Positions 3,511 to 63,400 of a stretch of DNA of 64,000 bases are shown piece by piece. Position numbers and translations under genes: made by a program. Each line of letters begins with the position of its first letter. Positions within the stretch are counted from its first letter, which is position 1. The notes below the pieces were generated by a model. The model made no database searches. It was given only the letters and a program-made list of their open reading frames with translations, and was not told where the DNA came from. The DNA comes from Asterochloris sp. CNOR1 (lineage: Eukaryota; Chlorophyta; Trebouxiophyceae; Trebouxiales; Trebouxiaceae), in NCBI GenBank assembly GCA_963969365.1, contig OZ017752.1:2604001-2668000 (forward strand). Reading direction: 5' to 3'.

Positions 3511-5785
3511 ATGGAAACGAATGCTCCGCTTGCGCAAGCCAAGCTTGTGTTGCTGGGGGACATGGGGGCTGGCAAGTCCTCTTTGGTCCTACGTTTTGTA
3601 AAGTGAGCCTGAGTCTTATTAGGGATGCTCCAGTGCTTCCACTGCTCAGCTTCCTCATGCATTACATTGCTGCCTGCAGGGGTCAGTTCTTTGACTATCA
3701 GGTGACCGCTGCGAGCAGAGACCTCCTGCAGGCTATTTCTCAAACCTTACACATGCTTTCTGCCGCTGTTGTGGTATGTGGGTGCTCACCTGCGCTGCTG
3801 CATGCTGCAGGAGAGCACCATCGGCGCAGCTTTTCTCACAAAAACGATGCCGGAGCATGGTATCAAGTTTGAGATTTGGTGCGCCTGAGGCTGAGTGTTT
3901 GGATGGCAGTGACAGGTGCTCAGCGCTGCAACCCTGGATCATGTCCTGCAGGGACACTGCTGGGCAAGAGAGGTATCGGTCACTCTCCCCCATGTACTAC
4001 AGGTAATGGGCACTGCCCCGGGCATTCCGCCACGCTGCAGACATGTGACACTGGCACATGCGAGCCGTACAAAGCTGTCATCGAGTCTTCGTCTTCAGGG
4101 CCAGCCATGAGCTGGCTTCGCCTGTGTTGGCATGTGTTTGCCCGCGCGAGACCAGCTGCGCCACAGCTCTTCAGCCACTGCTGCTCTGCAGGGGAGCGTC
4201 GGCAGCAGTGATTGTGTATGACATCACCAGCTCGGAGAGCTTCAAAAAGGCTCAGGACTGGGTGAAGGAGCTGCAGCGGCAGGTGAGAGCAGAGTACAAG
4301 GCATGGAAGATGTTGAGGCGGTAAGGCTCTCCAGCCTTGAGCCCCGGCAGGTTCTAGCTACCCAGCAGCACAGGCCTGCCAGCTGAAGGCAACATCAGCA
4401 GCGCGCCTGGGAGACAATGTCGCAGTTAGAGCCCTGCCCCGTCAGGGCAATTCCTGCTCCAGCAGCACAGGCCCGTCAGGCTCGAAGACAGCACCAGCAG
4501 TGCCCACGGGAGGCAATCTGGCACTGAGAGCCCTGCCCTGCCCTGCCAGGCCACTGTCCTGCCCAAGCAGCGCAGGCCTGCTGTGCTGAGACACAGTACC
4601 AGCAGCGCGTCAGCAAGGCACTGGTGCAACTGAGCAGCCTGCATGACCAGGTCACTCTGGCGCCACAGGCCTGCCATACTGACAGACAGCGCCACATTGC
4701 CTTGCAGCAGCCAGAGAGAAGGAGCACTGCGGGTGGCTGTGGCTGCCTGACTGTGCCCAGACTTGCTCTGCAGGCGTGCAAGGTCCTCCTGCAGTGTTCA
4801 GGGAGGATGAGACAGCACTTGTTGCTTCACTAATGCTCCGTGAATGCTGCATACGCTCCCATTTAGCATTGCATGGCCAACATGGTCATCATCCTGGTGG
4901 GTAAACCAAGTAAACACGGCCGACCTGTGTGCAGCAGAATCCAGACGTGTTCCTCAGCCTGGCAGACAAACGGGCAGATTGCCAAGAGCTTAAAGCCTCC
5001 TGCATGTTGCCCAGCCTGAAGGTGAGCGCCCCACTCACTCACCGCAACCTGCAGGGCACCCCCAACATGGTCATCAGCCTGGTGGGCAACAAGGCCGATC
5101 TGGAGTCAGCTCGGCAAGTGACGCAGGATGAGGCTAAGAGCTATGCTGAGGAGAATGGCCTCTTCTTCTGGGAGACCAGTGCCAAAAGCAACTCCCACGT
5201 TAGCGAGCTGTTCCAGGACATGGCCAAGCGGCTGCCCAAGGCAGCCTCCGCAGCACCCGCACAGGTGCCTCCAAACTGCATCTGGCTTGAGCTGCTGGCA
5301 ATGACTCACAGTGGCTGTGGGTCTTTACAGCGGCCACCTGCTGTCAGCTTCTGTGGCGCCTGTATCAACACCTCTGGAGCGTAAGTGGCCACAGGGGCTG
5401 GCAGTTGCCGCTGGCAGTCGTCAACCTGTTCACAGCACCTATGGAGTTTGTCTCGGTCCATCAACAGCTCGGCTTAAGGTCCTTGCACTGGGGCAGGGGC
5501 TGGCAGAGCTAAGCACTTGCTTCTCCTGCCACCTCATGAGCTCCCAGACTGGCAGTCAGTCCCCGCACCTGCATCCGGTATTGGGTTGGCAAAGCAGCTG
5601 CTGCAACTGGCCATGCGCCTGCCTCATACACACACAGCTGCACTGCCACTGCACAGCATAAACAGCACAGACTTGCTGCTGCACAGTTTTGAGTGGATAC
5701 CTGACTGCCTTTGCAGGCGCAAGATGGCAACATCCAGCTGGATCAGCCTTCAGAGAGGCCAAAGCGCAACGGCTGCTGCTCATGA
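3511..5785 (+). CDS. RAB5: RAB5-family small GTPase (plant RABF2/ARA7 type)
   Basis: Seven exons (3511-3602, 3680-3701, 3811-3878, 3952-4002, 4192-4282, 5055-5264, 5717-5785) encode 200 residues, the usual RAB length. All G motifs are present: P-loop GDMGAGKS, switch-I threonine in [32 protein letters not shown] and ETSAK. The C-terminus ends NGCCS, a dicysteine motif for geranylgeranylation. STIGAAF and the KRLP segment before the tail are RAB5 hallmarks and separate it from RAB7, RAB11 and the N-myristoylated ARA6 type. The family controls early/late endosome fusion and vacuolar traffic. Intron 5 is unusually long (772 bp) and holds a tandem array plus relic copies of exon 6, one of which could be an in-frame cassette exon (4935-5021). 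The start ATG lies nine codons before the KLVLLGD strand. Confidence 0.95.
4362..4640 (+). repeat. About three diverged ~100-bp tandem units inside RAB5 intron 5
   Basis: A unit starting at a GCAGCACAGGCCYG-type block and containing an AGAGCCCTGCCC block recurs near 4368, 4460 and 4565. The copies differ by substitutions and small indels. There are no terminal inverted repeats or coding capacity, so tandem duplication explains it better than a mobile element. Confidence 0.65.
4935..5021 (+). other. Candidate 87-nt cassette exon in RAB5, derived from the exon 6 edge
   Basis: Preceded by a TGTGCAG acceptor and followed by a GTGAGC donor, this stretch is 29 codons with no stop and is phase 0 at both ends, as its surroundings require. 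Its translation aligns with the start of exon 6: [14 protein letters not shown] against [15 protein letters not shown] more decayed DNA copy of the same edge lies at about 4876-4910. If included, it would insert 29 residues before the G4 NKAD loop and probably disturb GTP binding. It may simply be a relic that kept an open frame. Confidence 0.4.
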
Positions 5786-6099
5786 GGCCTGTCATGCAAT
5801 GCATGGCAATTGCTGCACGTCCATTGCACTGCTGCAGGGATCAGCAGCTGCCTCAAATGCTGCCTAAGAGTGCTCAGATGGCCTGCCATTCTGTGAAACG
5901 GTACATGCCAGCTCCCAGGGCAGCACGCAGCAGCTTCTTCTGCTGGCCAGTATAATGAGGATGTCAAAATCCCCTCAAGTATCCTGCTTACTTTGTGCAT
6001 TTCAACATGGCATGCTGTTTTTGGATAGAACTTGTAGTTTCTTGGCATGGGCACAGCCCTGTATGAGTGTCAGTGTAACACATCACATGTGCAACTCTC
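5786..6099. other. Convergent intergenic region RAB5 / RING gene with a TGTAA signal
   Basis: These 314 bp hold both 3' UTRs. A TGTAA polyadenylation signal of the green-algal type lies at 6074-6078 on the plus strand, about 290 nt after the RAB5 stop and close to the end of the opposing gene. No clear TGTAA is seen for the minus-strand gene here. Confidence 0.5.
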
Positions 6100-8475
6100 T
6101 TATAATTCAGATTTGCTGGCCTCTGGAATGATTTCAGCATTGCATATGGGGCAGACCTGCAGAGGAAGGGAAGCTGTAGGGAGGCAGGCATGCAGCAGCC
6201 AAAGCAGCAGGGGCTTTGACAAGCTGCCCACCTTGTTTATTTGCAGCCACTGCATGGCACAGTCGCTGTGATAAAAGTGTTTACACGGCCACAGGCTGAC
6301 AGAGTCCCCCTGCTCATAATCCATCTGACATATGGCACACCTGCAAATCAGGTGGGCTCTCTCAGTGCAGCTGGCTGGCGCACTGTGTCTATTGCTGCTG
6401 ATCACAGCACAACCAGCTGCAGAATGCTGCACACTGGGCTGTATGTACATGCACTCACTGCTCCTCAGAGTTGGCGCTGCTGCCACAGCATGGGTAGGCC
6501 ATGGTCTGCAGGCTGCTGAGGGCTGCCTGGCAGGCCCCCTTGCTGACAACTCCAACAGCCTCCCCAAGAGCCTGCAGCTCCTGCATGGCAACACCCGAAC
6601 CAGGTGAGGTCAGTCAAGCCATGAAGCACAAGCTGCAGACCAGATGTCTGACAGTTTCCATGTCATGAAGGGAGCAGAGGTGGCCGAGCTTCGCTTCCAA
6701 GCTGTGCCCAAGTGGTCCTGCAAAATCGGGTCAGTGCTGGCTCACGCCTCATTGAGCAAGCGCTGCAAGTGTTCATGAGAAAATACTTTGTGCAGCAGTA
6801 TGGCTGCATTCTGCAAGCGCCAAAAAGTTTGCAGCAGCTGCTGCCATGCTGATGCCCCGCAGAGAAAGACAGCCGCATTCCTGCAACAAGAGCAGGCAAG
6901 CCTTGCAGCTGTTTACCTCATAAGTCATCTCGTCTGGGTCTGCCGAGTCGTCCTCCAGATCAAGGTCTGAGTCGTCATAGGCCATGCCTGCGATGAGAAA
7001 GTCTGCCGCTGAGCCAAAGCAGGGGAGCGAGAACACATATACGGATATGCTGGGGTGAGCAAGATTGGCAATGGGGCCCAGCATTGGACCTTGACGAAGG
7101 GCAGGTGGGTGGGCTGCACTGACCATTGCCCAGTACGCATCCCCGCTGGAAGACAGCAGAGTTGACAGCCTTCCTACACACCCATGAGCTAAAACTTGAC
7201 TGCGTGCATAACCAGTGCATGCGCCTGCTACAGCCTCAGTGGCCTCTTGCATGCCAAAAGGCCTCCCCTGCCATGTCCAGCTTGCATTGTTGCTCTGCAT
7301 GCTGTTCTGCCTGATGGCTCCCTGGCTAGAGCTATTGACTGCACAACAACACGCCTAACCTGCCATCTCCAGCATGCGCTGCTGCAGCGCGTGGTGCTCT
7401 GCCTGATGGAGCTCCAGGGCCACCCTTAGATCCTCGTCCCCATCTGCAGCTTCCCAGGGCCCGCTCACTGCGTCTAGCCCGGCCTCAGCCTCAGCCTCGA
7501 TGCTGCAGTCGACCGATTCAGAGCTGGCGCTGGAGCAGCTCAAGTCCTCGCTTTCAGCCCGAAGTCCTGCCTCTGTGGCCGGGCCGGCTGCTGCCTCGCC
7601 AGATGGAGCCTGCTGCCGCCGCTGGCAGGGCGCAGAGCGCTGGCCAGAGCTGCCGGGCTCCAAGGCAAAGATATTCTCCTGCCTGCAGGCAGCATTGGTG
7701 GGGCAGGGATTGGCAGGCAGCCGCCGCAAAGGTGAAAAGGAGCGCGCTGGGTGTGGCTGCCCTTTGTTGCCTGCAGGCAATGCATGTTGGGCAGGCAGTG
7801 GCAAGTTGCCATTCATCAAGGCAGATTGCTGAGCGGGGCTGCCTGCTCAAAGGCAAAGAAATTGCCTCCCTGCAAACAGGACTGGAAGGCAGGCTTTGGC
7901 AGGCTGCCGCTCGCAAGGAGCAAATCGCTGAGCGGTGCCGCCATGCTCAGAAGCTAGTCGTCTTCGCAAAACAGGAAAGCTCGCTCCTTCTGGCGAGGTG
8001 CAGGGAGCTGGCTAGGGCTGTAAGGCAGAAACTTATCCCGTATGGAGGCAGCAGGGGCGCATGGGCAGTGGTGTGAGCATTCTAGACTGCCTACAGGTGG
8101 CACAGGTCGGTAGGTGTTGGCTGCCCTCGCTATAGGGTTGACGGCCGCAGAGAGTCTTGGAGCTGCAAGGTGCTATGAGAGTCTCATAGGATGCCTACAC
8201 AACCCTCAGGTGCAGTGAGCAGCAGGAGCAGCTCACCAACCCCCATTGCCCTGCATGCCACCCTGAAGCATGAGGAAAGCGCGCTCCTGCTCCTGCAATG
8301 CCTTTGCCAGGGCGAAGTCGTCCTGCAATAGTGATGGGGACACCTGTAAACTCACTGGCTGCATAGGTATGGACAGGCATGGAAGACTGTGTCAAGCAAT
8401 GCTCACTGGAGTGCCTGACATGTCCTGCATGTTCAAACTCTCCTTGAGGACGTCGTCCGGGCTTGAGACTGTCAT
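6100..8475 (-). CDS. RING-H2 E3 ubiquitin ligase, BIG BROTHER-like
   Basis: Seven exons (8475-8407, 8322-8237, 7682-7360, 6987-6917, 6580-6459, 6340-6232, 6156-6100) give 278 residues. The N-terminal third holds the DDFALAKALQEQERAFL helix, echoed later by DLRVALELHQAEHHAL, the leucine-rich helices common in this family. A serine/acidic linker follows, then DDSADPDEMTYEELQALGEAVGVVSKG, the conserved segment before the RING in BIG BROTHER proteins. The C-terminal RING-H2 reads CAIC...C-K-H-FYHSDC...CPIC, with all eight zinc ligands present. It should be a cytosolic or nuclear E3 acting with an E2; the substrate is unknown. The start ATG is the first in-frame one after the divergent promoter region. 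Intron 2 carries three decayed copies of the exon 3 edge. Confidence 0.88.
7660..7935 (-). repeat. Three ~90-bp diverged tandem units at the RING-gene exon 3 acceptor
   Basis: The block containing the real acceptor and the first codons of exon 3 (plus-strand positions about 7660-7735) is echoed twice further upstream in intron 2, at about 7735-7830 and 7845-7935. Each echo repeats the AGGCAAAG / CTGCAGGCA / TTGGCAGGC landmarks in the same order. They look like relics of tandem duplication across the splice junction. Confidence 0.55.
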
Positions 8476-8745: not shown

Positions 8746-11700
8746 ATGGTAAATGCAGCAATTCCAGTGCTGGCAGTGCTGATTGCTGTACTCTTCATTG
8801 TTGGTGAGCGCACCCTGAGGTAGTGCCTCTGTGCACATGTACTGGTTCCCAGGGTGCACTCAGTTATCAGCAGGCGTAGCTAAGTTGCAATGCATGCTGA
8901 ATTCTGATGCATCATCTTCCTTCCCGATCTGGCAGACTTCATGTGAGCTGCACTCATGGCTGCCATTGCAAGTGCAGCTGCATAGTCTCTCGGGACGGGG
9001 CTACCCCAACACACCTGCAACCTCCATCTGCAGCTTTGTGTGGGTGTGCACGCACCTACATCCCTTGCTCGCTTCGCTGCAGGCATTGTCATTGGCTACA
9101 TGCTGCGGCACCACAGAGCAGTGCTGCACAACAGGTTCAGGGCGCCAGCAGTCACAGAAGATGTGGAGGCAGCCCCGCTGCCAGGTCACCCGCTGTCCAA
9201 GAAGCAGGGCAGGATCAGCAACCAGAGCATCACCATTAAAGCCAGCGCCAGCACCACCTCCAATGAACATGACCTGGTGGGCAGCTGCTGCATCTACTGT
9301 TTGGCTCTGCTGACTCTGCTGACCTAAGTGCTGGGCTGGCTGGCAAGCCTGACGCAGCTTTGTATGAGGGACCCTGCAGCTGGAAGCTGCAGCTAGGAAA
9401 ACTCAGGCAAGAGCCTCAGGGTGACGCTGAAGGGTGACAACGGGAAGCACTGCAGCAAGGAAGCCTCAGTGCACAGCCTGTGCCATGCAGCTATCTGGAG
9501 ACACACAGCTGCAAGTCTGGGAGGCTGGCTGGCAGAGCGGCCCCCACACATGCCATGTTTGCAGGAAATATATAAACTGCCAAGTCTCTTTGCGCCATGC
9601 AAGGTCAGGCTGTGAGGCAAGCCTGTATAAGCACCTAGGTCTGAGCAGCTGATCTGCCAGTGTGAAATGCCAGCGCTGGGCGAGCTGCAGGCCCATGCGA
9701 TGCAGGTCAGGATGGTGGCATACAGTCAACCGGCTGAGCTTGCCTGTGCGCTGCAGGTGTGGTGGCGGGTCATGCTTTTTTTGTTCACAGGCTCAGCCAA
9801 GATGCCACCACAGCAGCCTTGCATTGCCGGGCGGAATGGTGGGCTGCTCTTACAAGCGGACAGGCTCAGTCAGGAACGGCGTCATCTCCCTGATTGCTCC
9901 AGCCACCGTGCTTTCACTGATTGCTCCTACCACCGTGCTTTTTTTGCCCTGCTGTGTGGACTGAGGAAGCACGCTTCTAAACGCACAGGCCAAGTAGCAT
10001 GGGGCCACTTTTGCCTGAATGCCACAGTCACCGGCCAGGTAGCCAGAACCCCTTCCGTGTGCTCTGCAGGGTAGGATGGTGGGACACACCTTCGACTGTA
10101 CAGCCTTGTCCAGCTTGCGTCGCATGCCCCGCTGTGTGCGCTGCAGGGCGGAATGGTGGGCCACGCCTTCAAGCGCACAGGTTCGGTTGAGATGGGCGAC
10201 ATCTTCCGGACCGCATCAGCCATCAGCATGTTTCTGGAGGAGGCTGAGACGCGCCCCTTCATCAACCGCCTGCTGTCCATGCCAGTGATGAACGCTGACG
10301 GCATTGGAGCGCGCCAGCCTGTCCTGGATGCGCAGGCGCTGAATCCCACCATCGAGGTGCGGCTCTGCCCCACCATGCAGTCTCCTGCAAGCCTCCTGTG
10401 GATGTAGGCTGTACATGGCAAACCATGCCAGCTGAATGCTACTGCTGAGGTCAGCAGCTCTGGCTCTATCATGGGAATGCTTGCATGGGGGATGTCGCTG
10501 GAAAGCGAAAGCAGACAGCTTACCCCAGACGCTGAGGGCAGCAGCAGTGCACCCTTTCGCCCTGCCACCTGCAGCACTGAGCGGGCACACTTGTGGGCCT
10601 GTCAGTTGCAGCTGGTGATGGCAGGTCAGCTCAGGTCCACCATCCGGGTGAGAGGTGGCCTTGTCCCCTGCAATGCTGCAGCAAAGCATTGGAGACCACA
10701 TCAAACTTTGTGCAAGCTTATTGTGGATGCATGTCACAGGCAGCCGAGCCATGTCAGCTGAGCCACACCACTGAGATGCACAGCAATGGTGCACGCTGTG
10801 TTTGCTTTTAGGCTTTCAGCTACACACAGTCACACCTTTGACAAGCCAAACAAAATCTTCTTCATTACGCCCACACTTGAGCCTGTCAGCTGCAACCAGC
10901 TGAAGCCGCCATGGCCGTGACACATCTCACAGCTTTGCAGCTAGCACTTGTCACTTGCACCCAGGTCAGCCATAGCCAGCCAGCCCTGTCTAGGACGCTG
11001 CAGTCAGACAGGCAGCACATCATGATCCCTCAGTGCTCACCGGGTCTGTCAGCTGCAGTCAGTCAGGCCAGATCAGCCACAAGCAGCCACGCAGCGCATG
11101 AACATTCGCGGCATACTTCAATGCTGGGAGCAGCGTCGTCAACTTGCTCATCCCTGTCAGCATGTGCAGGCGCCTTATGAGCGGCCAGTTCCTGTCCCCC
11201 ACAACCTGCTGCCGGGCTGCAGGTCAGCATGAACGAAATTGATCTGAATGAGCAGATCGGCAAGGGGGGCTTTGGCGCAGTGTACAAAGGCACCTGGCGA
11301 GGGGCGCCAGTCGCTGTCAAGTACGCTGTCTGCAACACCTCAGACGCTGACAGCATCGAGCAGAGCATCAGGGAGGTGGTGCTCAGCAAGAAGATGTCCC
11401 ACCCCAACGTGGTGAGTTCTGCACCGCTGCAAGCTGCCTCTTGGAGAGAGGAGGGGTTTGCCATGCAGCAAGCTGCTTCTGGCAGAGAGGAGGCCTGAAG
11501 CACCGCCTGTGTGAGGACTGTGGTGCCTTGTGCCGACACGTGACCACCACCTCTGCTGCTGCTTATGGCTGACCCCTACGGATTTCCTGCCTGTGCAGGT
11601 CCAGACCTACGCTTGGACTGTGCTGCATGGGCCCGACAGCCCTGAGCAGGTGAGGTCCTTAGATGAGGAACAGCACCTGAGATGCAGCTGTGGCTGCTGC

Positions 11701-14700: not shown

Positions 14701-17700
14701 GAGCTCTGTTGCTGGAGCTGTTATCGGCATGTTGTGAGCCCTCCTAGCATGCCCCAAAGAGGTTCGCTGCAGTACGCAGTCTGGCCAGGCAAGGATGTTT
14801 TGAGATTGTGTGGCGAGGGTCCTGTAGGAGGTTGCTACAGCGGGACTGTGCAAAGTGCTGGTGCAATAAAGTTTGGCGCAGCATTGGCTTTAGGAGGTAA
14901 CACAATATGACTGTGTGCCAGTGGCGCACCATGATACGTGGTGGGCACTGTGGGCATTGCCCTGCCCAATGCTGTACATCACTGTGCTTTCACGCTGCCT
15001 CTGGAGAGGCACTGTGCACACATGCATGCGTGTGTGCACATGCCCCGCCAAGACGTCCGGGAGCAGCTGTAGAGGCCAGCATCGAGTTTGGAGTCTGTAT
15101 GCATGCATCTGCCCTACAACACCACCCAGGACCAGCTGCAACCCACAGGCTGAGCACATCTGAAGCCTGTCTGGGTGCAGGTGCCCCACCACACCATCCA
15201 GGAGCAGCTGCAGCTGGACAAGGCCATGCCCCGGGGGTGGCTGCCAGCATCGCCACATGCAGAGCGGGGAGAGCAGCCCGCGGCAGGAGGCCCAGGTGAG
15301 AGGCTGCAGGCGTCACACATGCTGAGAGCTGGGGGCTTTGTGGTCAGGTGGTCATCCCGCATAGCAAGCAAGTCAGCTGCAGTCAGCATGCATCTGTGGT
15401 TTGAGCTCTGTGTGCAGCGCTTGATGGGCTCCACCCACATGCAGCACACTCTGCATTGGTCATACCCTGGACCTAACTGCTGCTTGTGTCTACAGGACCA
15501 TCTCAGGGCCCATCAGATCTGCCGCACCCAGCACGCTTCAGCAGCAGCCCTGAGCACCCACCATTCCAGCGCACAAGTTCGAGGTGAGGTTGCAGATATA
15601 ACTCACTTCTACACTACATAACGCCCATTCAGCAGCTGGGGAGGAGGGTGGGGACACTGGTGCATTGCAGCTGGCTCATGCAAGACCCCGCTGACAAGAG
15701 GCTGTGGCCCAACTTGCAGTGATCAGGCTCAGCCTGCTCTGCCAATGCTTTGACACTTCATGAGTGATCAGCTGGGTGTGCAGGGCCGGCAAGCTGGGTG
15801 TAGAAATCTGAAAATGCTCTGTAAACTGCTGGCATCTGCGCAAGACTGCATTGAGACAGTAGCAGGCTGTCTGCCTAGCCCAGAGATTTGCAATTCTGTA
15901 GGCCAACTGGACTGCAGGGCAAGTGGAGCTCACGTCTGCATGACAGCTGTGTTGGCAGCTGGCAGCAGGCCAAGCTCGGGTTGTCAATGGATGGGCATGC
16001 AACCGCCGACTGCTGTGCTGCAGGCTTGGGCGTAGCTCATCATCTGCCGCTGCTGTTGAGCAGCAGCAACCTCGATCACATCGCTCGCTGGATGGGAATG
16101 AGGGTGCTCCCTTAGGAGTCAGGCAGGGGCATGCCATTCCACGGTCGTGCAAGTCTCAAACCTCGCACCAGCACTCCTCAGGTATGTGCCTGGCTTTTGG
16201 AAATCTTGCCTTGCATGCTCTGTCTTACTGCATGCAGGCCAGTGCCGCGTGCTTTGCTGGGCAGCCGTACCAGGCCGCAACGTCCCTTGCAGGGCATTCC
16301 TGCCAGCCGGCTGAGCTCTCGCAGGGCATGTACCCATGTTACTCGTGCTGCAGAAGGCTACAGCTGAGAACCCTCGAAGGCTGCATAGCACACAGCTGTC
16401 AGTGCTGCCAGTGAGTGCTTGCCAGTGCATGTCCTGTGGTGGCGAGGCAACAGGCAGCTGCAATTGGGATCCCTCAGCCGACGCAGCGCGCGTGCATAAC
16501 ACACATATGTTCATTGTGGTACAGGCGCACTTGCTCGAAGCTATCAGACTGCAGGCAGCCAGAGGGCAACACTATTTCAGCCAGGCTAAGTGTGTTTGGC
16601 AGCTGCATGGCCATGGAGGCGTTTGAGTGCAATGCTGCGCTGCAGGGCATCGCAGCCGGGACCCTTCTGACGATGCAGAGCGTGTGCAGAGCACAGATGT
16701 GTCGGTGGCCTCCTTTAACTCAGAGGAGGGCTTTGGATCGCCCCAGATGGCACGCACGGGGAAGGGGCATGTCTCTGTGTTTGACATGGAGGACAATGAG
16801 CTGCAGGTGGGTGAGGCTCCTTGACAACTGTCTGCTGGATTGATCAACTATTGCCCAGATGTGCCTCGTCCCTGAAGGCCTGCAGTGCACGGCGGGGAGA
16901 GCGGCTGAGGCAGGGGTGGTACCACCTATGCAGCACTCCAGGACGGGCAGCAGTGGCCACATCTGGGGCCACTTTACTCCAAGCATGTCCTGCCTACAGC
17001 ATCTCAGGAGCAGCATAGCCTGGACAAGTGGACTCCCTGCACGTTTTCTAAGGCTGAACCTGCTGCCATCGCACTCAGACAGACATGCTTTCAGGCCAGG
17101 CCTGCCTCCAGCCAGTGCAGCCATGTCACCAGTCAAGGCCTTCACCAGGGTCCTGCAGCAATTGATGCAGCAGGCCCCAGTTGAGGCTGCCCGCGCCCGC
17201 CTCACTTCCTGCCACCACGCTGAGCTGTATTACTGTGAAGCCCCTGCATTCCCAGCTGCTGCTAACAGACACACTCCCAAGCTGTGTTTGCAGGGCCCCA
17301 GGTCTGTCTCTCGTTGCTTCTCTGTTGGACGCCCCCAAGCCTGCTCTGCAGGGCCACGAGTCAGTCATTGTTGTCGTCATGGAGTTCTGTGACCTGGGCT
17401 CGGTTCTGCGAGCAGTGACCAAGAAGGCCTTCCGTCCCCATGGGAAGTGGACCTACCACACCACATATGTGAGCGCAGCCTACTGCCTGGCAGCCAGCTG
17501 CACAGCCTCTGTGGCTGGGCCTTTGAGATTGAACAGCGGGTGTGCATGCAGCAAGCTGTCTGGTTTCACCTGCACAAGTGTGGATGCACAGCCTGGTGCC
17601 TTGTTCTGTAGAGGGCATCGCTGTAGATGAAAGGGAACCTCTAACTCTGCGCCATGTACCATTTCATGTGCTGCAGAGGGCGTTGTTGCGGACAGCCCAG

Positions 17701-47500: not shown

Positions 47501-50404
47501 AGCAAGGGATCACCCCCAGACCGCGCCAGCCGCACAGCCAGCAGCGGCAGCGCACCAGCAGGGGGCCAGGCTCAGGCTGGCAGCCGCCCCAGCCGCAGCC
47601 GGCACCCCCGCAGCAGCAGCAGCCCCGCAGACGGCGAGGGGCCGCCTCGCAGCGGCTCTGGCAGTGCCGCACGGGGCCGGCGGCGGCAGCGGCGCAGCAG
47701 CGGTGCTGGCGAGAGCGCTGCCGCTGAGCCTGCCAGCTGGGCCGGCGTGGCCTCGCACCTGCTGGAGGCCATGATCATGGTGACACGCCTCTCTGTGCGG
47801 GAAGTGCAGTCAGATGAGGACCGGGAGCGCGCCATATGGCTCATGGAGAAGCTCGAGCAGGTGGGAAGGGGTTGGTGGCAGGATCAGGGCTCGCTGGGTG
47901 GAGGGCTCGCTCTGGGCTGCTGTACTATATATGTGGCGGCAGGGGAGTGAGGGCCAGAGAGATTTCTGGATATCATCGCAGCTGTCCTCGCTGGTTATGG
48001 GGTGTCCAGGAGCGCGCCAAGCGGCTCACGCAGGAGCTCGAGCAGGTGGGGGTCTGAGTGGGGGGTTGCTGGGCAGAGATGCAGGTCCATGATGCTCCTG
48101 GACAAGCCCGACAGATGTGGCAGGGCTGACTGGGTGGGGGACTGCTGTGTGAAGGGCTCGCTGTGATGCAAGGTCTTGAAGCTCATGATGAGAGCATGAG
48201 CAGGTGATTGATCTGGGAGAGGGGGCATAGCGAGGGCTTGTGGCGGCGGCCAAGCGGTGGGTTCCAGTTGTCGTAGCGGCGAAGCAGTGCTGCAGTGTGT
48301 GCTGAGTCCAGCCGTTGTCCTGGAGGCTGCTGTAACTGTCTCTGCTCTTATCTGGCAGCAGAGAGTTGCTGCAGGAGTTGCAAGGAACCACAGCTTGTAA
48401 GAGATTGCTGCAAGCTTCAGCAACATTCAGCCAGCCGCTGCTTTCAAGTGCAAGCCTTTATGGGCTATGTCTTTGGCAGGCACAAGCACTCTTTCAGAAG
48501 TGTCACTGAAGTGCTGCAGACGCCCCAGGCTTGCCAGCCGGACCCTTTTAGGCAGCTGATAAGCTTACACAACGTAACCTGCTGCCGCCCATCTGCAGAC
48601 CGCACAAGCAGTCAGACCGCACCTGAGGGGAGAGGTGGGTGAGATGGCAGGGGAGGCAGAAGCTGAGTCCACAGAACCCATCAATGAGGCAGCACAGGAC
48701 ACAGGTGGGCATGCCTTCGATGCATTGTCTCTCATGTCCTCACTCTGTGCTGCTGTTCTGTGTCCCCCGCAGGTGGGGGGTTTGCAGGTGGTCAAGCTTC
48801 TGGGGGCTGCTGTTGCATGGGAGGGGCGTCCCACACCTGCACGAGACACAGCACAGCAGCGTAACTGGAGAAGCACCTGACCAGGCAGGCCCACCTGTGT
48901 CCCGCACCTGCATGGGACGTAGGTGTGCCGGCCTGCTGTGTTGCTACTGCTGCATGTCCTGCATGCATGACACCTGGGTTTGTGGAGCGGGCAGATCCAA
49001 ACTTTGTGGCCTGCGCCCCTTCTGCTGCCAACACCCGGCGTCAATGAAAACAAGAGCAATCTGCTGCCGCAGTGTCCCGGGATGTTTGCATGGTTGACTT
49101 AACTTTAGGAGCCTGGTGGAGCCGTCAGAGTCACCAAGGCGCAGTTGGACCTGCAGCATGACACACCTGCTCCCTCTGTTGCCTGTAGACAGCTCAGATG
49201 ATGAGGCTGTGGAGGTGCATGTGACCGTGGATGGCGCGGGGATGATCAGCAGCCTGCAGGCACAGGCCCCTGGCAGCAGCGACGGCGGCCAGGGGGACGC
49301 CCCCCTGGAGAAGGCGCTGCAGGCAGTCAGTCAGCTGTTCCAGTCGCAGGGCAGCACAGGGCAGCAGGAGCCCCCACGAGGTAGGCTGCTTGCTTTTCCC
49401 TGTCTTCTGTATTGTGGGCTGCTTGCCTTTGCCTGTATCTTGTACTTTCAGGAGCTGGATTTGTCTTGGTGTGCTGCACTTGGGTGGCTGGGCATGTGCT
49501 GCAGGCTTGTCTGTTTCCTGCAGGTGAATTGCTATACACCTGTCCCCTCTTGCCTGCAGAGCTGTCCAGCGGCGTGCAGTACACCAGAGTGCCCATGGAC
49601 TTGCCAGTGACAGACCCCTTGCAGGGCCTGTTTGTGGGCCACTATGGCCCCCACGGGCCAGAGGTGCTGCAGCTGGAGCGCAAAGTCATAGTGAGCTTGG
49701 TTGTGCTGCCTTGCTTGCCTCCGAATGCTGCCCGGCTGCGCTGGGAGGCCCTTGTGGCAGACCCAACCTGCCTGGCTGCTTCTTGCATGACAACTGGCTG
49801 GGCTGCAACTGTGCCTTCAAAGGGTCAGCAATGGACACTTCCGCTGCCACTGCTTCGAAGTGGGTGTCTGACGAGACATCGGGCATCACCATGCGCAGCG
49901 GGGACGGTCTTAATGCCACTGCCCGCTTTGTTTCATGTGCAGCCTGTGCACAGCTGCAACTCTTCCGTGCCCACAGTGCGCTGCAGTTGGCAGCTCCAGG
50001 CTGCACTGCAGCTGCCCTGCCTCTAGCAACTCCTCGTGCCCGGCCTGTGCCTGCAGGACGGGGAGGAGTGGGTGGAGGCCCTGAAGCTGACCGGCGATGC
50101 CAACGTCCCTGCGGGCGCTGTCAGCTTCAAGGCGCGGGTGGGCGCGGCCCACAAGCGCAAAGCGGGTGGCGCTGGCGTGCCTGAGCAGTTTGGTGTGGCC
50201 TGCCGCTTTCAGGGCTCAGGCTGCGTGGCCCAGCAGGGGAACCAGAATGCCAGCTGGGTGGAGGGGGAGCTCTTAGTATTCTCAGACTCTGGCCCTGTGG
50301 GCCGTCACCATGAGCTAGGATTCATGTGGCATGTCCCTGGGGACCGCAACTTCCTTGTGCTCCTGTCGCGCCTGGACTTGAGCCTGGCCCACGTACAGGC
50401 CTGA
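41533..50404 (+). CDS. EX1: EXECUTER-type chloroplast singlet-oxygen signalling protein with a large insert
   Basis: Thirteen phase-compatible exons (41533-41808, 42230-42385, 43152-43346, 43834-44047, 44272-44535, 44838-45041, 45678-45979, 46850-47860, 48010-48045, 48599-48704, 49189-49380, 49560-49690, 50057-50404) encode 1144 residues, against about 680 in plant EX1. An N-terminus rich in hydroxylated and basic residues could be a transit peptide. WEQWKEFFARMDQLG precedes a UVR motif (AVQNERFEEAAMLQEQI). A second such segment reads ALENEDYELASNLRDRAGVGL, then GWW. Next come SPLFELFVTSDQSGN, VPIVIGGNVDKLSG and the C-terminal EXECUTER domain (DPLQGLFVGHYGPHGPEVLQLERK, ALKLTGDANVPAGAVSFKA, EQFGVACRFQG). 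In plants EX1 sits at grana margins and is cleaved by FtsH2 to relay singlet oxygen. The extra length is a single 337-codon exon. The start is the first in-frame ATG; an upstream exon is possible. Confidence 0.93.
41940..42150 (+). repeat. Relics of EXECUTER exon 1 (donor edge) and exon 2 (acceptor edge) in intron 1
   Basis: 41949-41992 repeats the exon 1 end (CAGCGCAAGCTGGG-GCAGTGGA, then GGTGGGCTGC). 42030-42062 and 42113-42150 repeat the exon 2 start (GGACCAGCTGGG, AGAAGG-GCTG). So one intron carries copies of both of its own junctions. Confidence 0.65.
42500..42680 (+). repeat. Relics of the EXECUTER exon 2 donor edge
   Basis: GTCAACATG-TC-TGAA followed by a donor-like G is seen at 42518-42536, echoing 42367-42386. 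A weaker copy with GAGGACG lies near 42657. GGCGGCTGGGC-G blocks recur at 42450, 42590 and 42720. Confidence 0.5.
46040..46640 (+). repeat. Array of EXECUTER exon 7 donor-edge relics
   Basis: The exon 7 end (45925-45983: AGCTGCCTGAGGCAGTG ... GAGCTGCAGGCCCACCCGCTG, then the donor) is echoed near 46096-46120, 46155-46206 (longest), 46307-46365, 46405-46460 and 46570-46600. GAGCTGCAGGCCCA-CCGCTG is kept almost exactly in the first. Confidence 0.7.
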
Positions 50405-50869
50405 ATCTGGCCGCCAGCACCGGCATGGCCGGGGGGGCGTTTATCTTGAGGCCCCACAAGTTGCAATGCCTGCGCCCTTCTTTTGGAACAACCTTCCCTT
50501 TCCTGTGAGCGCCTGTAGTGTTCATTTTCTGGTTCTGGCCAAAGCGGCGCAGCTGTGCATCCACCTTGGTGATGTTTCTGTCGTGTCATCTGTAAACATG
50601 TCTGAGTGTTGCTCAGCAATGTGTAAGCTGCTATAAGTAAGCAGCACTATTGGCGTTTTGATCACACTGGTGTGGGGAGCAGCAGTCAAGTGCTCTGGAA
50701 CATGTGCTGACTCCCTTGGAAAAAACCCACAACAATGCATGGAACAGGGTCTAGCCACATGATGGGTCACCTCTTTGAGGAGGTGATTATCACATACTGC
50801 CTCATCAACCAAACATCGATTGCAAAAGCTCACGGCTTATGTTACAGGGCAGTTGGGGATTCAGGAAGT
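50405..50869. other. EXECUTER 3' region with a TGTAA polyadenylation signal
   Basis: TGTAA lies at 50591-50595, about 190 nt past the stop, fitting a green-algal poly(A) signal. The sequence becomes visibly more AT-rich after about 50520. No coding frame with family resemblance was found up to the tRNA. Confidence 0.55.
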
Positions 50870-50941
50870 GACCACGGCAGGGATCGAACCTGCAATCTTC
50901 TGCTTCGTAGGCAGCCGCCTTATCCATTGAGCCACGCGGCC
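50870..50941 (-). tRNA. trnR-ACG: tRNA-Arg (anticodon ACG), copy 1
   Basis: This 72-nt cloverleaf reads from 50941 down. Acceptor GGCCGCG pairs with CGTGGTC with two G-U pairs. The D arm is GCTCAATGGATAAGGC-like, the anticodon loop is CTACGAA with ACG at 34-36, and the T arm contains GGTTCGATCCC (B box). The outermost pair of the anticodon stem is G-A, unlike the second copy, so this copy may be slightly degenerate. There is no intron. A run of four T on the minus strand lies about 43 nt past the 3' end. Confidence 0.9.
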
Positions 50942-51457
50942 CCGGAGAACCACTTGCAAACACGTGTTATCAAACAAGAAACGCGGCTCTCCCACTCGCG
51001 GCGTTACCTGGTGTCCCAACTCTACCTGGGCTCAGAATTAGTGGTGGCAGAGTCATAGGCAGTCATTGTGCGAATATTTGCTCAACAACCGTGTGTCCTA
51101 TGCAGTCGTAAAGCAGAACGAAATTGAGGGATTTCAATAGGGTCTGCCACCGAATGCGCCTTCGGACGCGACGAAGTTCGGTTGCAGTGCGACATACACT
51201 AACCCTCGCTTACCTTTCGTTTTGCGTACAAGTCGTGGTCTAACGCAGACAACGAGGCAGAAGATGGTCATCAGCTTTTGCAGTCCAGTGCCTGAACATG
51301 ACTACAAAGCCTTATACGTGTACCCCTGGCCAGGGTCCAACCCACTGAAGCCTGGTACCCTTCCTTGATGCCCTGACGGCAAAGAGGACTAGAGCCATCG
51401 CTCATGTTCATGTAGTCTGATACATATCATCATTCTGACAAATCACCATGTATACGT
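50942..51457. other. Spacer between divergent tRNA-Arg genes, no gene seen
   Basis: These 516 bp are less GC-rich than the rest of the window. I see no open frame with coding character and no extended inverted repeat beyond the tRNA genes themselves. Confidence 0.5.
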
Positions 51458-51529
51458 GGCCGCGTGGCCCAATGGATAAGGCGTCTGCCTACGAAGCAGA
51501 AGATTGCAGGTTCGATCCCTGCCGTGGTC
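51458..51529 (+). tRNA. trnR-ACG: tRNA-Arg (anticodon ACG), copy 2
   Basis: 72 nt with the same fold as copy 1. The acceptor pairs GGCCGCG/CGTGGTC, the anticodon stem TCTGC/GCAGA is fully paired, the loop is CTACGAA with ACG at 34-36, and the T arm is GGTTCGATCCC. A-box-like (TGGCCCAATGG) and B-box sequences are intact. After A34-to-inosine editing it would read CGU/CGC/CGA. It points away from copy 1. Confidence 0.95.
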
Positions 51530-51551
51530 AGTCAGATCAAAGCCAACTATA

Positions 51552-51556: not shown

Positions 51557-52869
51557 CTGTGGGAAGATTATTGCAGCCCGCACAGGGACATGAGATATCC
51601 CATTTGGAGACACAAGGGTTCTGCTGTCCATATAGCCTTTTGTGGTCCAGTAGCCTGCTTGCTGAGTGTTCCCTGTGCAATTCAGGCTTCCAGGATCACA
51701 TTGTGGGAGTGTACAGACACCTCTTTGACAAGAGCATCTACGTCCTCCCGCGACATGTGTGTGAGAATCCACCTCACATCAACAATCAGGACAGACAACT
51801 CCCTAAGTATATGCAATGTGTCTTGCCATGCAATGCGTTTTTGTTATGCTGCAGCATTGTGCTCACCTAGCCTTGACCTGCAGCAGTGCCTCTGGCAGGC
51901 ATAGCAGCCTAATAAGCTGGCTGCTATCAAACTAGACTTAGCTTGCACTGGCCCATCCTGAAAGGGGGTAGAGAGTGCTGCTGGGGTCCAGCAGGTGTTC
52001 AGCGCTATCAGCAACAGCCTGCCCTGCTGAGATGCCTAGCAGAGGCTCCTGCTTAGGCTGCAGACTTTATGGCAGTGGCACCACATCCCAGCTTTCCACA
52101 TCCTGCACCGCAGTCTACAGGCAGACAGGACTGCTTCCGCAAGCAGAGGGTGCCCGGGACACATGAACAGCACTGACTTATTCTGGCTGTGAAGCATGTG
52201 CTGAGGCAGTGAAAAGTTCTTTTAGGTGGCAACTTGCACCCTGACGCCAGGCTCTGCAGGAAAGCAGCGCTTGACATGTCAGTCGACTGACATGCAAAAC
52301 AGGGTGACTGCTTGCCTACAAGGGACTCCCTGTGCAGCTTGCTGCTCTCACCTGCTACAGCTGCTGCCCTCACACCGAGCCTTATATGCCAGCAGGAATG
52401 TAACATCCATCTAAAGTGCTCATTGCATGTGATGCGGGGCCGCATGGCAACCATGTACTGAATCAATCTACATTTGGACCTGCTGAGCTTTCACATCTTC
52501 AGCTCCTATTCAGGCTGTGCTGCACTCCAGCCTGTGCAACCTATGTCATTGCAACAGCAGAACACTGCAACAGCAGAGTTCCCGCTGTTTGAGGTCCTCT
52601 TGAAGGGTCCCAGCAGCTGCCTGCACCTCGCTGCTGCAGCCCTGGAGCCACCTGGCATGTTCTGAGCTGCTGTGCCATGTGCCTTGCACTCCACTGCCAG
52701 CCTCAGGTCTTCAGTATCCCTCCAGCTCATCAGGACTCACAGTGAATTGCCAAGTCCGCCGCCGCACCCCTCCGCATCCAGGCCAGCTTGCACTCCATTT
52801 CAAATCCATGCAACAACACCCCATGGATGGCAGGGCCCCACTGGCACTGGCTGGCAGGTACTGCCTCGA
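51557..52869. other. Gene-poor stretch, no supported gene
   Basis: Several open frames of 60-140 codons exist, but none shows a domain, consistent codon bias or phase-matched splice sites. A perfect 20-bp palindrome lies at 52275-52294. Confidence 0.4.
52275..52294. promoter_or_regulatory. Perfect 20-bp palindrome centred on GTCGAC
   Basis: The ten bases CATGTCAGTC are followed directly by their reverse complement. It could be a dimeric transcription-factor site for the downstream genes. No family is recognised, and chance cannot be excluded in a window this size. Confidence 0.4.
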
Positions 52870-53023
52870 GATCAGCTTGCTACTGCTTGGCCCTGGCATG
52901 CCCCCTTCAGCTGAGCATTATGTGATGGCGGTACCCGCTGACAGGAGATCAGCTTGCTAATGCTTGGCCCTGGCATGCCCCCTTCAGCTGAGCATTATGT
53001 GATGGCGGTACCCGCTGACAGGG
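52870..53023 (+). repeat. Near-perfect 77-bp tandem duplication
   Basis: Units 52870-52946 and 52947-53023 begin with GATCAGCTTGCTA and end in CCGCTGACAGG; by eye they differ at very few bases (a C/A near unit position 14). The unit is not a multiple of three, so any frame crossing it would shift. It is much younger than the decayed intron relics. Confidence 0.9.
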
Positions 53024-55331: not shown

Positions 55332-55518
55332 TCAAATTTTGCTAAAGTCTGCCTGGAACGCTTCATTGAGATCCCTGTGTCAGGAAATCCGATGTCCTGC
55401 CCACATGCAGGGGGTGTGCGACATGCTGAGAATCTGTTTCGCAAGACATGCTCGAAGTGAAAGAAAAGAGTTTCTCGCCAACCAGCTTGCCATTTTGCAG
55501 GGGGTTTCCTGCTCAGGC

Positions 55519-58107: not shown

Positions 58108-58480
58108 TGATGTTGCTTACAAGGAAGCATAGCCTCATCAAGAAATCGTAATGGTGAATGAAACAGGAAGGAGGGGGAACAAAAGCAAAGAAGAGTGCCA
58201 CTCCAAGTGGCGATGATCAAAACACAAATACTGCATTGGTATACAGGGTTGTGATAGCAAGGCAGATGGGTCGCCACTTGAGGCCAGTCGTTGGCAAAGG
58301 TGACAGGGAGAGAAAGTGCCAATCAAATCACAAGCGGCTGCTTGATTCCCCAGACCAGGGGCTCATGTATGCAGTTGGCGCTGTTGGGGCGCGGCACTGC
58401 GCTGCCGCATGCAGGAGCCGGCCCTGCTCAGTCTTAAGGTGCTGTCTTTCCCAGTGCCGGCAGGCACATCCCAGCAAAGG
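58108..58480. other. Convergent intergenic region, taspase / serine-rich gene
   Basis: 373 bp with both 3' UTRs. A minus-strand TGTAA at 58121-58117 is the only candidate poly(A) signal seen for the left-going gene. No coding frame is supported. Confidence 0.4.
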
Positions 58481-60073: not shown

Positions 60074-60464
60074 CAGGCAATCTCGGCCTACTCTAGGCCC
60101 ATAGCGGAGCTTGCGTTGCGCAGGCCGGTCTGGCTGTCCCCGCCAGTGGCGGGGAGGACAAGCAGTCAGTCAGACAGGACACTCTCCCAGCTTAGGCAGA
60201 GGCCTACCTATGCCCTGAGTAGGTGTTGAGAACGTGGATGAGCAAAGGTGGGCTGATGCCGGTTATTGGAGTTTTCGCACTGCTTTGAGGCTGTGATGTG
60301 TTGATGTCGGCAGTGCCTCTCAACTTCCCAATTCTAAGGCGTGCAACGAGGTGCAGCTGGTCCCCCCGCAAATCCAGAAGCGATTTTCTTCTGAAAACTA
60401 AATGTAACACTTTACTTCTTCAACTTGTGTCTCACTGGATCAGGGGGACTACCAGTGCCATGGG
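60074..60464. other. Spacer between IleRS and serine-rich gene
   Basis: 391 bp hold the IleRS 3' UTR and the promoter of the next gene on the same strand. A T/A-rich patch lies at 60380-60425. No gene is seen. Confidence 0.4.
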
Positions 60465-63400
60465 TTAGGCCACCCCTGCAGGCTGCTTGGATGCTGTGGG
60501 CACAGTGAAGTTGATGCGCTGGATGACAGGCAGGCATCTCTCACAGAGCTCGGGGTGCGCAGCATCCTGCCCGCAGTGCGTGCTGTAGTTCCAACACCTG
60601 CAGGGTGGGCAGGTCAGCATGGCGCATCGCTCCTTGCAGCAGCCCAGCAGCAGAGCAGCGCACCTGCTGCATTTCTGGCCCTCAGCTCGCAAGATGCCCA
60701 CAGAGACTTGCCCTGCGCCGTCGATGTCTAGCTGCCCAGAGAAGTCTGCTGCCTGAACAGACGCCTGCAGCAGAAAGGCCTGCAGCTCCTGACTGCGCTG
60801 TTCATTTTCATAGATGCAGTGCGCTGTGGCATAGTTCTGACTGCCATCCTCAGACACCTCGGACTGCACCAGCATGCCTCAAGCTTCACGCAGCTTCTGT
60901 CTTAGGTGCAGTGTGACTGGCATGGCATGCTACTCAGATGCTCAAGCCCTGCCCTCAATCAAGCTGTTGTCTAACACTGCTCAAGCAGACAGACCTGGTC
61001 GGTGACCTCTGCCTGGGAGCTGATGAACAGGTAGCGCAGAGGGTCAATGCCATTGTCCGCAGCGTTGAGGTGATGCAGGCGCTCCTGCAGCCACCCCTCG
61101 CTGCAGTGCACAAGCACCTTGGCCTCCAGGGCAGCCCCCAGGAACTTCTGCCCTCGCGCCTTCTCCAGCACCGAGTTGGCGTGGTCGCGTACGCTGCGCA
61201 GCGTGTGCCACATGCGCAACTCGTCCTGCAGGCAGCGGGGGGACCCCAAACCTTTTTATCAGTGCCACCATCGACACTGGCTGTATGAGTTGCAGCACCT
61301 GCCACGTTTGCAGCTTACCCTGCACAGCAGCGCAGGGGTGGTGTATCTTCAGGAAGAGCATTGAAAGACTGAATAGAATGCGCACACTGGAGAAGCTGAA
61401 GGCAGTGCGCAGCGTCTGCCATGTGCGCAGCTTGGCCTGCAGGCAGGGCCGGGACTTGGAGCGTGCTGATCGATCCTTGTACAGGCTATGCCCCTGCCTG
61501 CTGCGCAGTGTACGCCACATGTACATACTGCTCTGCAGGCAGGCAGGCCAGAGTCATGCATCTGCACTGCCAGTGAGGCAGGCTGGCTCCAGCCGGGAGG
61601 TGGGGTGTGGCACCTCTCACATGCGCAGCTCATCTTGCAGGCTGAACAGAGGCGTTTGGTTGGCACTGCATTGGCATTGTAGCAGGCGACACCTGATGGG
61701 GCTCATGTATGTTGTAGCACAGCCCGGTCTGGGCTGTGACAGACACTTTGACAGCATGTTTGAGAGGCCAGGGCAGGCCTGCAGATGGTCCGTAGATGAT
61801 CCAGCGCAGGGGACAAGCTCCGCGCAGCTTTGCAGGTGGCAATGACCCCTCCAGCAGGAAGTAGCACACCGCAGACAACTGTCTCACCTCAGGCACCTGG
61901 TGCCACTCTGGGGGCGCCTGGAACCAGCCGGCCTCAAACACTGAGCCTTTGGGCTGGGACCATGGCAGGTGTTCCCAGGCGTCCTCCGCCATGTGGGCCA
62001 GTACAGGGGCTATGGCTGGCAGCATGCCCTGCAGCCGGGTGACTGTGGCATGTCCAGGCAGTTCAGCAAAGCGTGCAGCCATGCAGGGCAGAGCAGGGGG
62101 TGACGCTGGGCTGCCATGCAAAGAGAGACAGTCGCATCCAGCGTGACACCTGGGTCTCAACAGGCCTGCATCTCTGCATGAGTAGACGGCATAGGCACCA
62201 CATCCCCCCACAGCAGTGCTCTCCTGGCTGGTTGCAGTTGCCACCATTTTCTTTGCGGGAAAGCCTGTGTCTGACATGGGGGCTCATGAGAGGGGTACTT
62301 TCTGTGTCATGTGGCGACTCACTGAGTAATGGCAGCCCGGCAGACACAGCCCTGCAGGTCCCCGAGGCAAGCAGCACAAGCCCTGCTGCCATTTGCAGGT
62401 TGCAAACAGCTGGGCTCTACTGCGGGTGACCAAAGAATGAAGTCCAGACAAGTTGCACCTGCAGCAGCGCTGCCAGCACTGTCTGGCAGGCTCGCCGGTC
62501 GCTGGAGTCCCCTTGCCTGACATACAGCCTGTCCTTGGCGATGTCCAGGTAGAAATTGGAGAGATCCTGGACCACAAATCGCTGCATTGCCTGCAGAGCA
62601 GCAGAGGGGCAGTGCATGCTGAAGCTTCATCGTGGTGCTCAGGGCTGCAAGACCTATAGTTTGGAAATGGGGAGAGGTGCTGTGCATGTGCTCTATTGGA
62701 GAGAAGGCCTGCAGGCCTGCTGGCTTTTCAGCAGGCAGACCACCTGGTGCTGCTCCCACAGACCTCTGCTCTGCCTGCAGAGCAACATGGAGGCCACTCT
62801 CCATACTTTAGAGAGTGTCACTTGTGACATGTTTGGCTAGGGAGGGCCGCGGCTGCTGCGGGTGTCTTAGGGGTCAGACCTGCAGGCGTGGCACTGTCAG
62901 CCCTGTCTTCAGACACAATGAGGTGGCTGCAAGCATGCAAGGCATGTCTGGCAGCACATGATCTGAACCTTACCACTTCAGACGTAGCACCTTGCAGATG
63001 ACTGCAAGCATATGGGGCCAGGCAAACAAACATATGCACCCAACATACTCAGGCTGCTCAGTTGCTAATGCAACCTGCTGTCAAGGCGGTGCTGACCGTG
63101 CAGCACACCAGGGCTGCGCAAGTGGTTGATGTTCACTCAGGCCCCTGCCACCCCACAAGGCACACCCGTGTCTTGTTGGGTCTGCTCTTGGGCAGCAGCG
63201 ACCTACTGTACCACAGGCTTCACCCAGGCCAGTGGCTGAGGGCCACTTAGTCAGAACCCACAGACAGGCCTGCAAATGCATGGACCTGCTGCGTCAAGCC
63301 ACAGATCGGCGGAAGCTTCACAGCTGAGGCAGCCTGACGTCTGCTGTGAGCCGGGCGCAGCCCACACTGACCTGGAAGAAGCGGAAGAAGGAATACTTGC

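Follow-up and report, generated by a model that had tools for sequence, protein, structure and literature searches.

The DNA analysed here (the window) is a stretch of 64,000 nt from Asterochloris sp. CNOR1 (assembly GCA_963969365.1, contig OZ017752.1, positions 2,604,001–2,668,000 of the forward strand). Among its predicted genes are those for RAB5, a RING protein, a kinase, delta-COP, CFAP58, EXECUTER and IleRS. The gene models are ab initio predictions throughout: a self-trained gene finder (HMM), applied to the window and to a 200-kb block of a second contig not seen during the first-pass annotation (264 kb together), yielded 48 genes with 581 introns. An earlier gene finder that handled the strands separately produced two giant merged genes and was discarded. 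Pfam searches gave no match for five of ten single open reading frames (two of delta-COP, one of CFAP58, two of EXECUTER) or in the first 168 residues of CFAP58; NCBIfam gave a single weak match among three open reading frames. The first-pass annotation had described introns carrying decayed copies of their own adjoining exon edges (relics) in the seven genes named above. This observation was confirmed, and at least one relic was found in each of them.

In the RAB5 gene (plus strand) a relic of the next exon's 5' edge is located at 4866–4904, shifted by 185 bp from the real copy at 5051–5089. Compared with RABF2b, the real exon aligns from the LQGTPNMV segment and the upstream extension of the HMM is without counterpart. 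The predicted exon stretch from 4935 to about 5042, which holds a copy, has no counterpart in the best-matching solved homologue. The intron starting at 4283 contains a decayed tandem array (4271–4781) with a period of about 99–105 bp (265/425 matching positions at shift 105), the first unit of which has a 12-bp overlap with the 3' exon edge in a lenient alignment. The RING gene (minus strand) carries relics of the donor junction at site 7359 (7248–7307, 42/60) and of the acceptor junction at exon start 7682 (7845–7908, 51/64, with CAG kept). Three acceptor junctions of the kinase gene (plus strand), 10147, 15181 and 18645, have relics at 10050–10103 (41/54), 15089–15140 (41/52) and 18536–18577 (32/42), respectively.

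In delta-COP (plus strand), relics were found of the 5' exon edge at 25212 (25082–25116, 31/35), of the acceptor junctions 25837 (25655–25697, 37/43) and 27356 (27173–27215, 36/43), and of the donor junctions 28453 (28674–28717, 36/44, donor GT kept) and 29731 (29800–29843, 34/43). The 3' edge of exon 27356–27523 recurs within the intron 27524–28263 in four degraded copies (27557–27585, 27647–27685, 27920–27948 and 27949–27977) and, judged by eye, possibly in a fifth near 28103–28130. The HMM exons 27967–27996 and 28111–28143 are without counterpart in the alignment with delta-COP 5a1u_H and were rejected. At 28890–28942 the acceptor is present in two near-identical copies with a spacing of about 28 bp, just as had been described; the second copy is the predicted acceptor. 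The intron 29111–29559 (shift 110) has copies of the donor edge near 29220, 29313 and 29428, spaced by about 110, 93 and 115 bp, each of which has kept CAG and GTRAG; a 9-bp HMM exon at 29420–29428 was rejected and read as intron sequence.

In CFAP58 (minus strand) an 86-bp tandem unit at 38101–38207 contains copies of the donor at 38225 (43/57) and of the acceptor at 38081 (55/66), both of which belong to the same predicted intron of 144 bp; the 30-bp exon 38052–38081 is itself an uncertain prediction. A further relic at 37809–37844 (26/36) corresponds to the acceptor junction at exon start 37659. EXECUTER (plus strand) has relics of the donor junctions 41809 (41952–41991, 37/40) and 45980 (46091–46138, 37/47, with more copies to about 46365) and of the acceptor junction 43152 (42954–42985, 27/32). 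A stretch at 48010–48045 copies the 3' end of exon 46850–47860 and has its own acceptor and donor, with a predicted intron (47861–48009) in between. This is a predicted, candidate new in-frame exon of 36 bp, and cassette exons derived from junction copies are only candidates. In IleRS (minus strand) the intron 61226–61887 holds three further acceptor-edge copies, the exon-like parts of which start at 61436, 61532 and 61634. Together with the real edge they form a four-copy acceptor array, CTGCAG being intact in two of the further copies and changed to CTGCAA in the third. The predicted exon 61299–61436 was rejected, with 68 query residues facing 17 in 1ffy_A at this place. The predicted exon stretches of IleRS, RAB5 and delta-COP that hold copies are thus all absent from the best-matching solved homologues.

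The similarity has a strict polarity: the exon edges that introns resemble are the 3' one of the preceding exon and the 5' one of the following exon, and not the far edges of these exons or non-adjacent exons. For 562 of the 581 introns (60–1500 bp; exon edges below 25 bp left out), the 3' edge of the upstream exon ranked first of 41 in 8.7% (n=495) and the 5' edge of the downstream exon in 8.4% (n=501), against 1.0–3.3% for fourteen other edge classes. The corresponding rates at z>4 were 5.9% and 5.6% versus 0.2–2.0%. Counted separately, 24/230 predicted edges reached z>4 in the window compared with 9/1126 other edges; for the unseen block the corresponding counts were 33/766 and 26/3834. Either comparison gives a Fisher p in the range from 1e-12 to 6e-12. 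The claim that copies of an exon's 5' edge precede it and copies of its 3' edge follow it thus holds beyond chance in each block alone; the excess over non-adjacent exons is confined to the adjacent, predicted edges in both, and intron matches nearly disappear upon shuffling. Similarity seldom extends more than 60 bp into exons. With introns of at least 268 bp, the outermost 60-bp exon windows matched the adjacent intron in 26/213 and 23/209 cases, the windows 61–120 bp from the edge in only 2/147 and 0/143. This polarity presumably needs no special rule, since the spare copy of a junction-spanning unit would have to stay intronic for the reading frame to survive.

The copies are local and direct, and the inverted orientation is rare. 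Lenient gapped self-alignment of introns gives long alignments of about 56% identity spanning whole arrays; the comparison of placements and the tallies by intron rest on it, the remaining analyses on stringent alignment scoring. The latter gave 162 local direct pairs versus one in shuffled sequence. At a score of 95, 119 of 5679 intron windows had direct, 12 inverted and none shuffled matches; intergenic windows also show direct repeats (11/750 direct, 2 inverted). The shift was 20–250 bp in 138 of the 162 pairs, 20 bp being the lower limit of the search. The unit size of 30–130 bp given in the first-pass annotation falls within this range, but the shifts spread more widely. Its statement that introns are built from such copies goes beyond what can be seen, since recognisable copies account for only 3–9% of intron bases. 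Among 854 junctions (427 introns of 100–2500 bp; models with exons below 25 bp dropped) 75 strong matches were found, and most junctions show none. Relic copies recur in 27 of the 48 gene models.

Adjacency, polarity and the direct local orientation, in the window as well as in the unseen block, support the proposed tandem duplication across exon–intron junctions followed by decay. We consider it very probable that an ordinary process of small local tandem duplications, mostly 20–250 bp apart, with subsequent decay accounts for the relics. Direct orientation and closeness of the copies are what such a process leaves. Young copies should moreover be present in full length, arranged head to tail, which is the case at eight of 19 loci with K <0.15 (aligned length at least equal to the shift; for example 52861–53022 in the window); the other 11 are partial. 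As a gauge of possible short microhomology at the breakpoints, the length minus shift in eight events was 7, 3, 8, 3, 8, 1, 8 and 1 (one corrected for a third copy), compared with a simulated median of 1 and mean of 2.8 (p 0.008, with only eight events). The age distribution counts against this explanation: nine loci have K <0.1 and 37 have K 0.15–0.25, while simulated detection is nearly flat there, and a steady process does not predict this. The peak in mutational age was weighed as a sign of a past wave, but not taken as one.

According to this explanation by local duplication and decay, small direct tandem duplications would arise along the genome and persist where harmless, mostly in introns. 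If a unit spans an exon–intron border, the splice site nearest to the coding sequence would stay in use and the spare junction would become intron sequence. The intron would lengthen by one unit, the spare splice site would act as a decoy and decay more or less neutrally, and arrays with as many as about five copies would result from repeated events. Duplications across a junction would stand out because the exon copy is held by selection on the protein, so that the pair remains recognisable about twice as long as a pair of intron copies. Presumably duplication proceeded one unit at a time and neutrally, with net intron growth, and break repair or slippage may have been the maker. A comparison of beta-tubulin and light-harvesting paralogues for a copy with and a copy without the duplication polarised no event; most tubulin exon matches have 90–94% identity, with 85% and 90% for the two shortest, and the introns of these tubulin paralogues do not match each other.

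A different reading takes splice junctions as duplication hot spots, through CTGCAG microhomology or breaks exposed by transcription or splicing, and as the main engine of intron growth. Junction-centred windows match in 27/219 (donor) and 34/219 (acceptor) cases, compared with 22/344 and 16/344 for internal windows (z>4), and matches of exon-edge windows show a roughly threefold excess over those of internal intron windows (Fisher p 1e-4 and 4e-4). Exon constraint alone, however, predicts an approximately twofold excess; the junction-centred excess at donors is about what the slow exon half predicts, and at acceptors it lies above that. Intron windows adjoining junctions do not differ significantly from internal ones (14/233 and 13/233 vs 26/616 and 24/616; p 0.28 and 0.35). 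In the placement of 156 lenient pairs, 43 were intron-only, 52 spanned a donor and 51 an acceptor junction, where random placement gives 60.9, 54.8 and 33.3; thus acceptors are favoured in these lenient alignments, whereas donors follow random placement. Intron-internal duplications are comparably common, which does not bear out junctions as the building material, and the direct repeats in intergenic windows likewise speak against hot spots. For CTGCAG as the cause, the relics have an identity of 0.87 at positions -6 to -4 of acceptors, and match ends lie near TGCAG/CTGCA in 109/616 cases versus 89.3 (sd 8.1) in shifted controls, an excess that alignment anchoring could also yield; the case for this suggested cause is weak. 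Hence strong hot spots at splice sites are probably not present, and the hot-spot reading as a whole is improbable. Because the excess is two- to threefold (junction-centred) and about threefold (exon-edge) against the twofold predicted, a modest junction preference is possible.

It is very improbable that the copies are functional, be it as alternative, mutually exclusive or cassette exons or as selected regulatory decoy sites. Some relics have kept both splice sites and the frame, as in EXECUTER 48010–48045, and several appear as exons in the ab initio gene models. However, for the 61 of 75 junction matches that were usable, mismatches are spread evenly over the codon positions (124/603, 108/597 and 128/601). 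The relics are therefore not coding, and the constraint on both copies expected of a tandem exon duplication with functional copies is absent. The decay of relic splice sites is similar in pace to that of the sequence around them (AG kept in 22/30, GT in 9/16), CTG and CAG of relic acceptors being only slightly better kept (identity 0.87 and 0.82 vs 0.71–0.81). In the three genes checked the extra segments are absent from the best-matching homologues. Counts of decoy motifs in intron interiors show no clear separation of sense and antisense (AGGTGAG 16/9, CAGGTRAG 12/11, CTGCAGG 124/115). Repeated insertion of introner-like or other mobile elements with splice sites, which the recurring acceptor motifs of many introns might suggest, is largely refuted, as the first-pass annotation had argued: copies match the host gene's own junction, and within 264 kb no element recurs in many unrelated introns, distant non-self matches occurring in 8/427 introns versus 29/427 with local ones and junction windows matching other genes' introns in 2/219 and 2/219 cases at z>4, none at a score of at least 90.

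In the human genome, small tandem duplications are described as the most frequent type of short insertion and ascribed to repair of breaks with overhangs (PMC8355091). The algal copies share with them the direct orientation, the adjacency, the lack of element ends and, where young and full length, a size under about 100 bp. They differ in that we read them as a population of old and decayed copies, located in introns and at exon borders, for which the repair route is hypothetical. A potato gene is reported to carry a splice junction on a tandem unit, as here, and also an 83-bp tandem duplication within an intron (PMC3443670). In contrast to that account, existing introns of the alga would lengthen and spare sites decay with no new intron needed, and the pattern recurs in the 27 gene models mentioned above. 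Exonize, as described, likewise finds exon-derived matches within introns, including unannotated or degenerate ones, but begins with annotated exons at the protein level, whereas the algal units are part exon and part intron and show edge polarity. Direct repeats near splice sites have been taken as traces of DNA break repair (PMC11782384). These too are exon–intron border repeats, but those described measure 4–30 bp and come from comparing the two ends of one intron, while the algal copies of about 20–110 bp repeat one intron end inside the intron.

Relic junctions also explain a practical problem, in that gene finders take them for exons. Of the seven named genes, three were compared with solved homologues, and it had happened in all three. 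It is improbable that junction-spanning duplication was a main route of intron growth in this alga, concentrated in a past wave, and that most intron sequence, though no longer recognisable as such, derives from the gene's own edges. If it were true, each intron would be a datable record, with the exon as a nearly fixed reference and the relics as clocks. For compact genomes it is difficult to trace intron lengthening, as old intron sequence lacks a partner for comparison. Here the preserved exon half provides the reference, and one genome may suffice to measure the rate at which introns gained units by duplication, together with the age and size of these units.

The first-pass annotation held that introns resemble their adjacent exons only, with copies of an exon's 5' edge in the intron before it and copies of its 3' edge in the intron after it. 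This was borne out by an edge test on 264 kb, comprising the window and, as an independent replicate, a 200-kb block of contig C1. The 60-bp edges of the exons flanking each intron, as well as those of up to three more exons on each side, were aligned to the intron and the score was ranked against that of the same edge in 40 length-matched introns from other genes (562 of 581 introns; exon edges below 25 bp were left out). Among the sixteen edge classes, only two are conspicuous. The preceding exon's 3' edge ranked first in 8.7% of cases (n=495) and the following exon's 5' edge in 8.4% (n=501), against 1.0–3.3% for the remaining classes. Strong matches in the window numbered 24/230 for the predicted edges, 1/230 for the far edges of these exons and 9/1126 for non-adjacent exons; the corresponding values in the C1 block were 33/766, 5/766 and 26/3834. 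Neither of the refuting outcomes named beforehand, a missing excess for adjacent exons or matches between unrelated genes, was seen in the 264 kb. The observation of junction copies in introns holds.

The gene models came from a two-strand, self-training hidden Markov gene finder, seeded with 21 conserved-looking peptides of the window, which called 48 genes, 629 exons and 581 introns in the 264 kb (median intron 233 bp, median exon 113 bp). As a check, delta-COP was aligned end to end to a solved homologue, RAB5 to RABF2b, and IleRS in four pieces to 1ffy. Pfam matches comprised Ras, RING and Ribosomal_L4, both adaptor-type domains of delta-COP, and the anticodon and zinc-finger domains of IleRS. 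UVR and PF12014, the combination associated with the name EXECUTER, were matched in the EXECUTER gene. Fragments of the kinase and CFAP58 scored under the curated Pfam cut-offs, and several single ORFs had no Pfam match. Residual errors in the models are micro-exons and relics, i.e. decayed junction copies, called as exons. Across all models the acceptors are unusually uniform, CTGCAG followed by G (T.90, G.94, C.98); donors read CAG with GTGAG. The window belongs to a eukaryotic genome of 56.4 Mb in 21 contigs, and GC is about 58%. Size, GC content and intron number are similar to those of the lichen alga Asterochloris glomerata, for which PMC6652019 gives 56 Mb, 56–62% GC over 98% of the genome and 9 introns per gene.

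The copies are clearest at the following loci. IleRS has four acceptor copies, with the real exon start at 61225 and other exon-like parts from 61436, 61532 and 61634; CTGCAG is intact in three of the four. In delta-COP, the intron 29111–29559 contains three donor copies beyond the real one, and one exon edge was copied four times, perhaps five, in the intron 27524–28263. An 86-bp unit in CFAP58 holds both splice sites of a predicted 144-bp intron. Positions 41952–41991 of EXECUTER are identical at 37/40 to the donor junction at 41809. At 48010–48045 of this gene the preceding exon's end is copied with its own acceptor, and the resulting predicted in-frame exon of 36 bp is a candidate exon birth.

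Some further features were noted. Between predicted genes, 52861–53022 is a near-perfect 77-bp tandem duplication whose two copies are 95–98% alike. In the C1 block (178213–178359), a predicted coding exon ends in a tandem duplication of 72 bp, a multiple of three; the copies are 73/75 identical, and one of them was called as intron by the gene finder. Two beta-tubulin paralogues fetched for comparison (L022 567–800 and L023) have exons mostly 90–94% identical; one predicted intron early in L022 is absent from L023, and the shared introns compared differ in length and do not match each other. Two tRNA-Arg (ACG) genes with opposite orientations are separated by about 0.5 kb (50868–50941, minus strand; 51457–51531, plus strand).

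Local repeats run in direct orientation. Among 5679 intron windows of 60 bp, 119 matched directly at score 95, 12 in inverted orientation and 0 in shuffled sequence, representing 63 direct and 5 inverted separate places. Stringent tiling gave 162 direct pairs, and 1 when the sequence was shuffled. The shift between copies was 20–250 bp in 138 of the 162, and identity was mostly 65–92%. In exons, the copied part extends for about 60 bp from the edge: these outer 60 bp matched the adjacent intron in 26/213 and 23/209 cases, the next 60 bp inward in 2/147 and 0/143. Junction matches in the 427 introns examined numbered 75 (46 at acceptors, 29 at donors), and 46 of the 75 cross the junction by at least 6 bases on each side (30 acceptor, 16 donor). 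Among these, AG is retained in 22/30 relics and GT in 9/16, not far from the prediction for two bases at the general identity of about 0.77; the relic acceptor hexamer is retained slightly better than neighbouring bases. Exon and relic differ about equally at the three codon positions (mismatches 124/603, 108/597 and 128/601; 61 of 75 matches usable). Hence, the relics are dead copies, and the real exon itself is little altered since copying.

Junctions are probably not special by much, and the tests partly disagree. Matches to the intron downstream or upstream were found for 14/233 and 13/233 of the intron windows adjoining junctions, and for 26/616 and 24/616 of the internal windows, with no significant difference. 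The match rate of exon-edge windows was about twice that of junction-flank windows and three times that of internal intron windows. Junction-centred windows matched in 27/219 (donor) and 34/219 (acceptor) cases versus 22/344 and 16/344 internally. A twofold excess is expected if an exon copy is nearly fixed whereas two intron copies both decay, since this doubles the time over which the pair is recognisable. When lenient pairs were slid randomly within their own loci, donor-junction pairs numbered 52 observed versus 54.8 by random placement, acceptor-junction pairs 51 versus 33.3 and intron-only pairs 43 versus 60.9. Taking window tests and placement together, a modest preference for acceptors is possible. 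Near match ends the CTGCAG motif, whose microhomology was proposed earlier as a possible cause, shows a slight excess (109/616 versus 89.3, sd 8.1), which alignment anchoring could produce. Length minus shift is 1–8 bp in eight young full-length events, compared with 1 (median) and 2.8 (mean) in simulations (p 0.008); with so few events, this is a hint of microhomology at breakpoints. Direct repeats also occur in intergenic windows (11/750); thus, the process is not limited to introns.

Only 9 tandem loci in the 264 kb have a divergence K below 0.1, about fourfold fewer than the 37 at K 0.15–0.25, while simulated detection is nearly flat (at least 0.93 up to K 0.23). A steady process should not yield this deficit of young pairs, which could reflect a past wave, a declining rate, or fast collapse with some sampling effect.

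Tandem duplication as an insertion mechanism, intron gain by tandem duplication and degenerate exon copies have already been described, and dual-specific splice sites are the subject of PMC10809524. A polarity of junction relics towards the adjacent exon edge, as a way in which introns grow, is described in none of the titles and abstracts that were listed, which does not prove its absence.

At least one lenient self-match above the 97.5% shuffle level was found in 108 of 578 introns. Loci longer than 450 bp (intron plus exon flanks) exceeded the 95% shuffle level in 42–50% of cases, shorter ones in 13–23%. Recognisable stringent copies cover 2.6–9.2% of intron bases, depending on length class. 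A rough growth rate is 0.13–0.50 bp added per non-coding bp per substitution per site, an upper guide because deletions are ignored and array shifts are counted as single units. Consequently, the earlier statement that introns are built from junction copies does not describe their present appearance, but stands as a possibility for deep time: at the rough rate, much of an intron would be rebuilt over long times.
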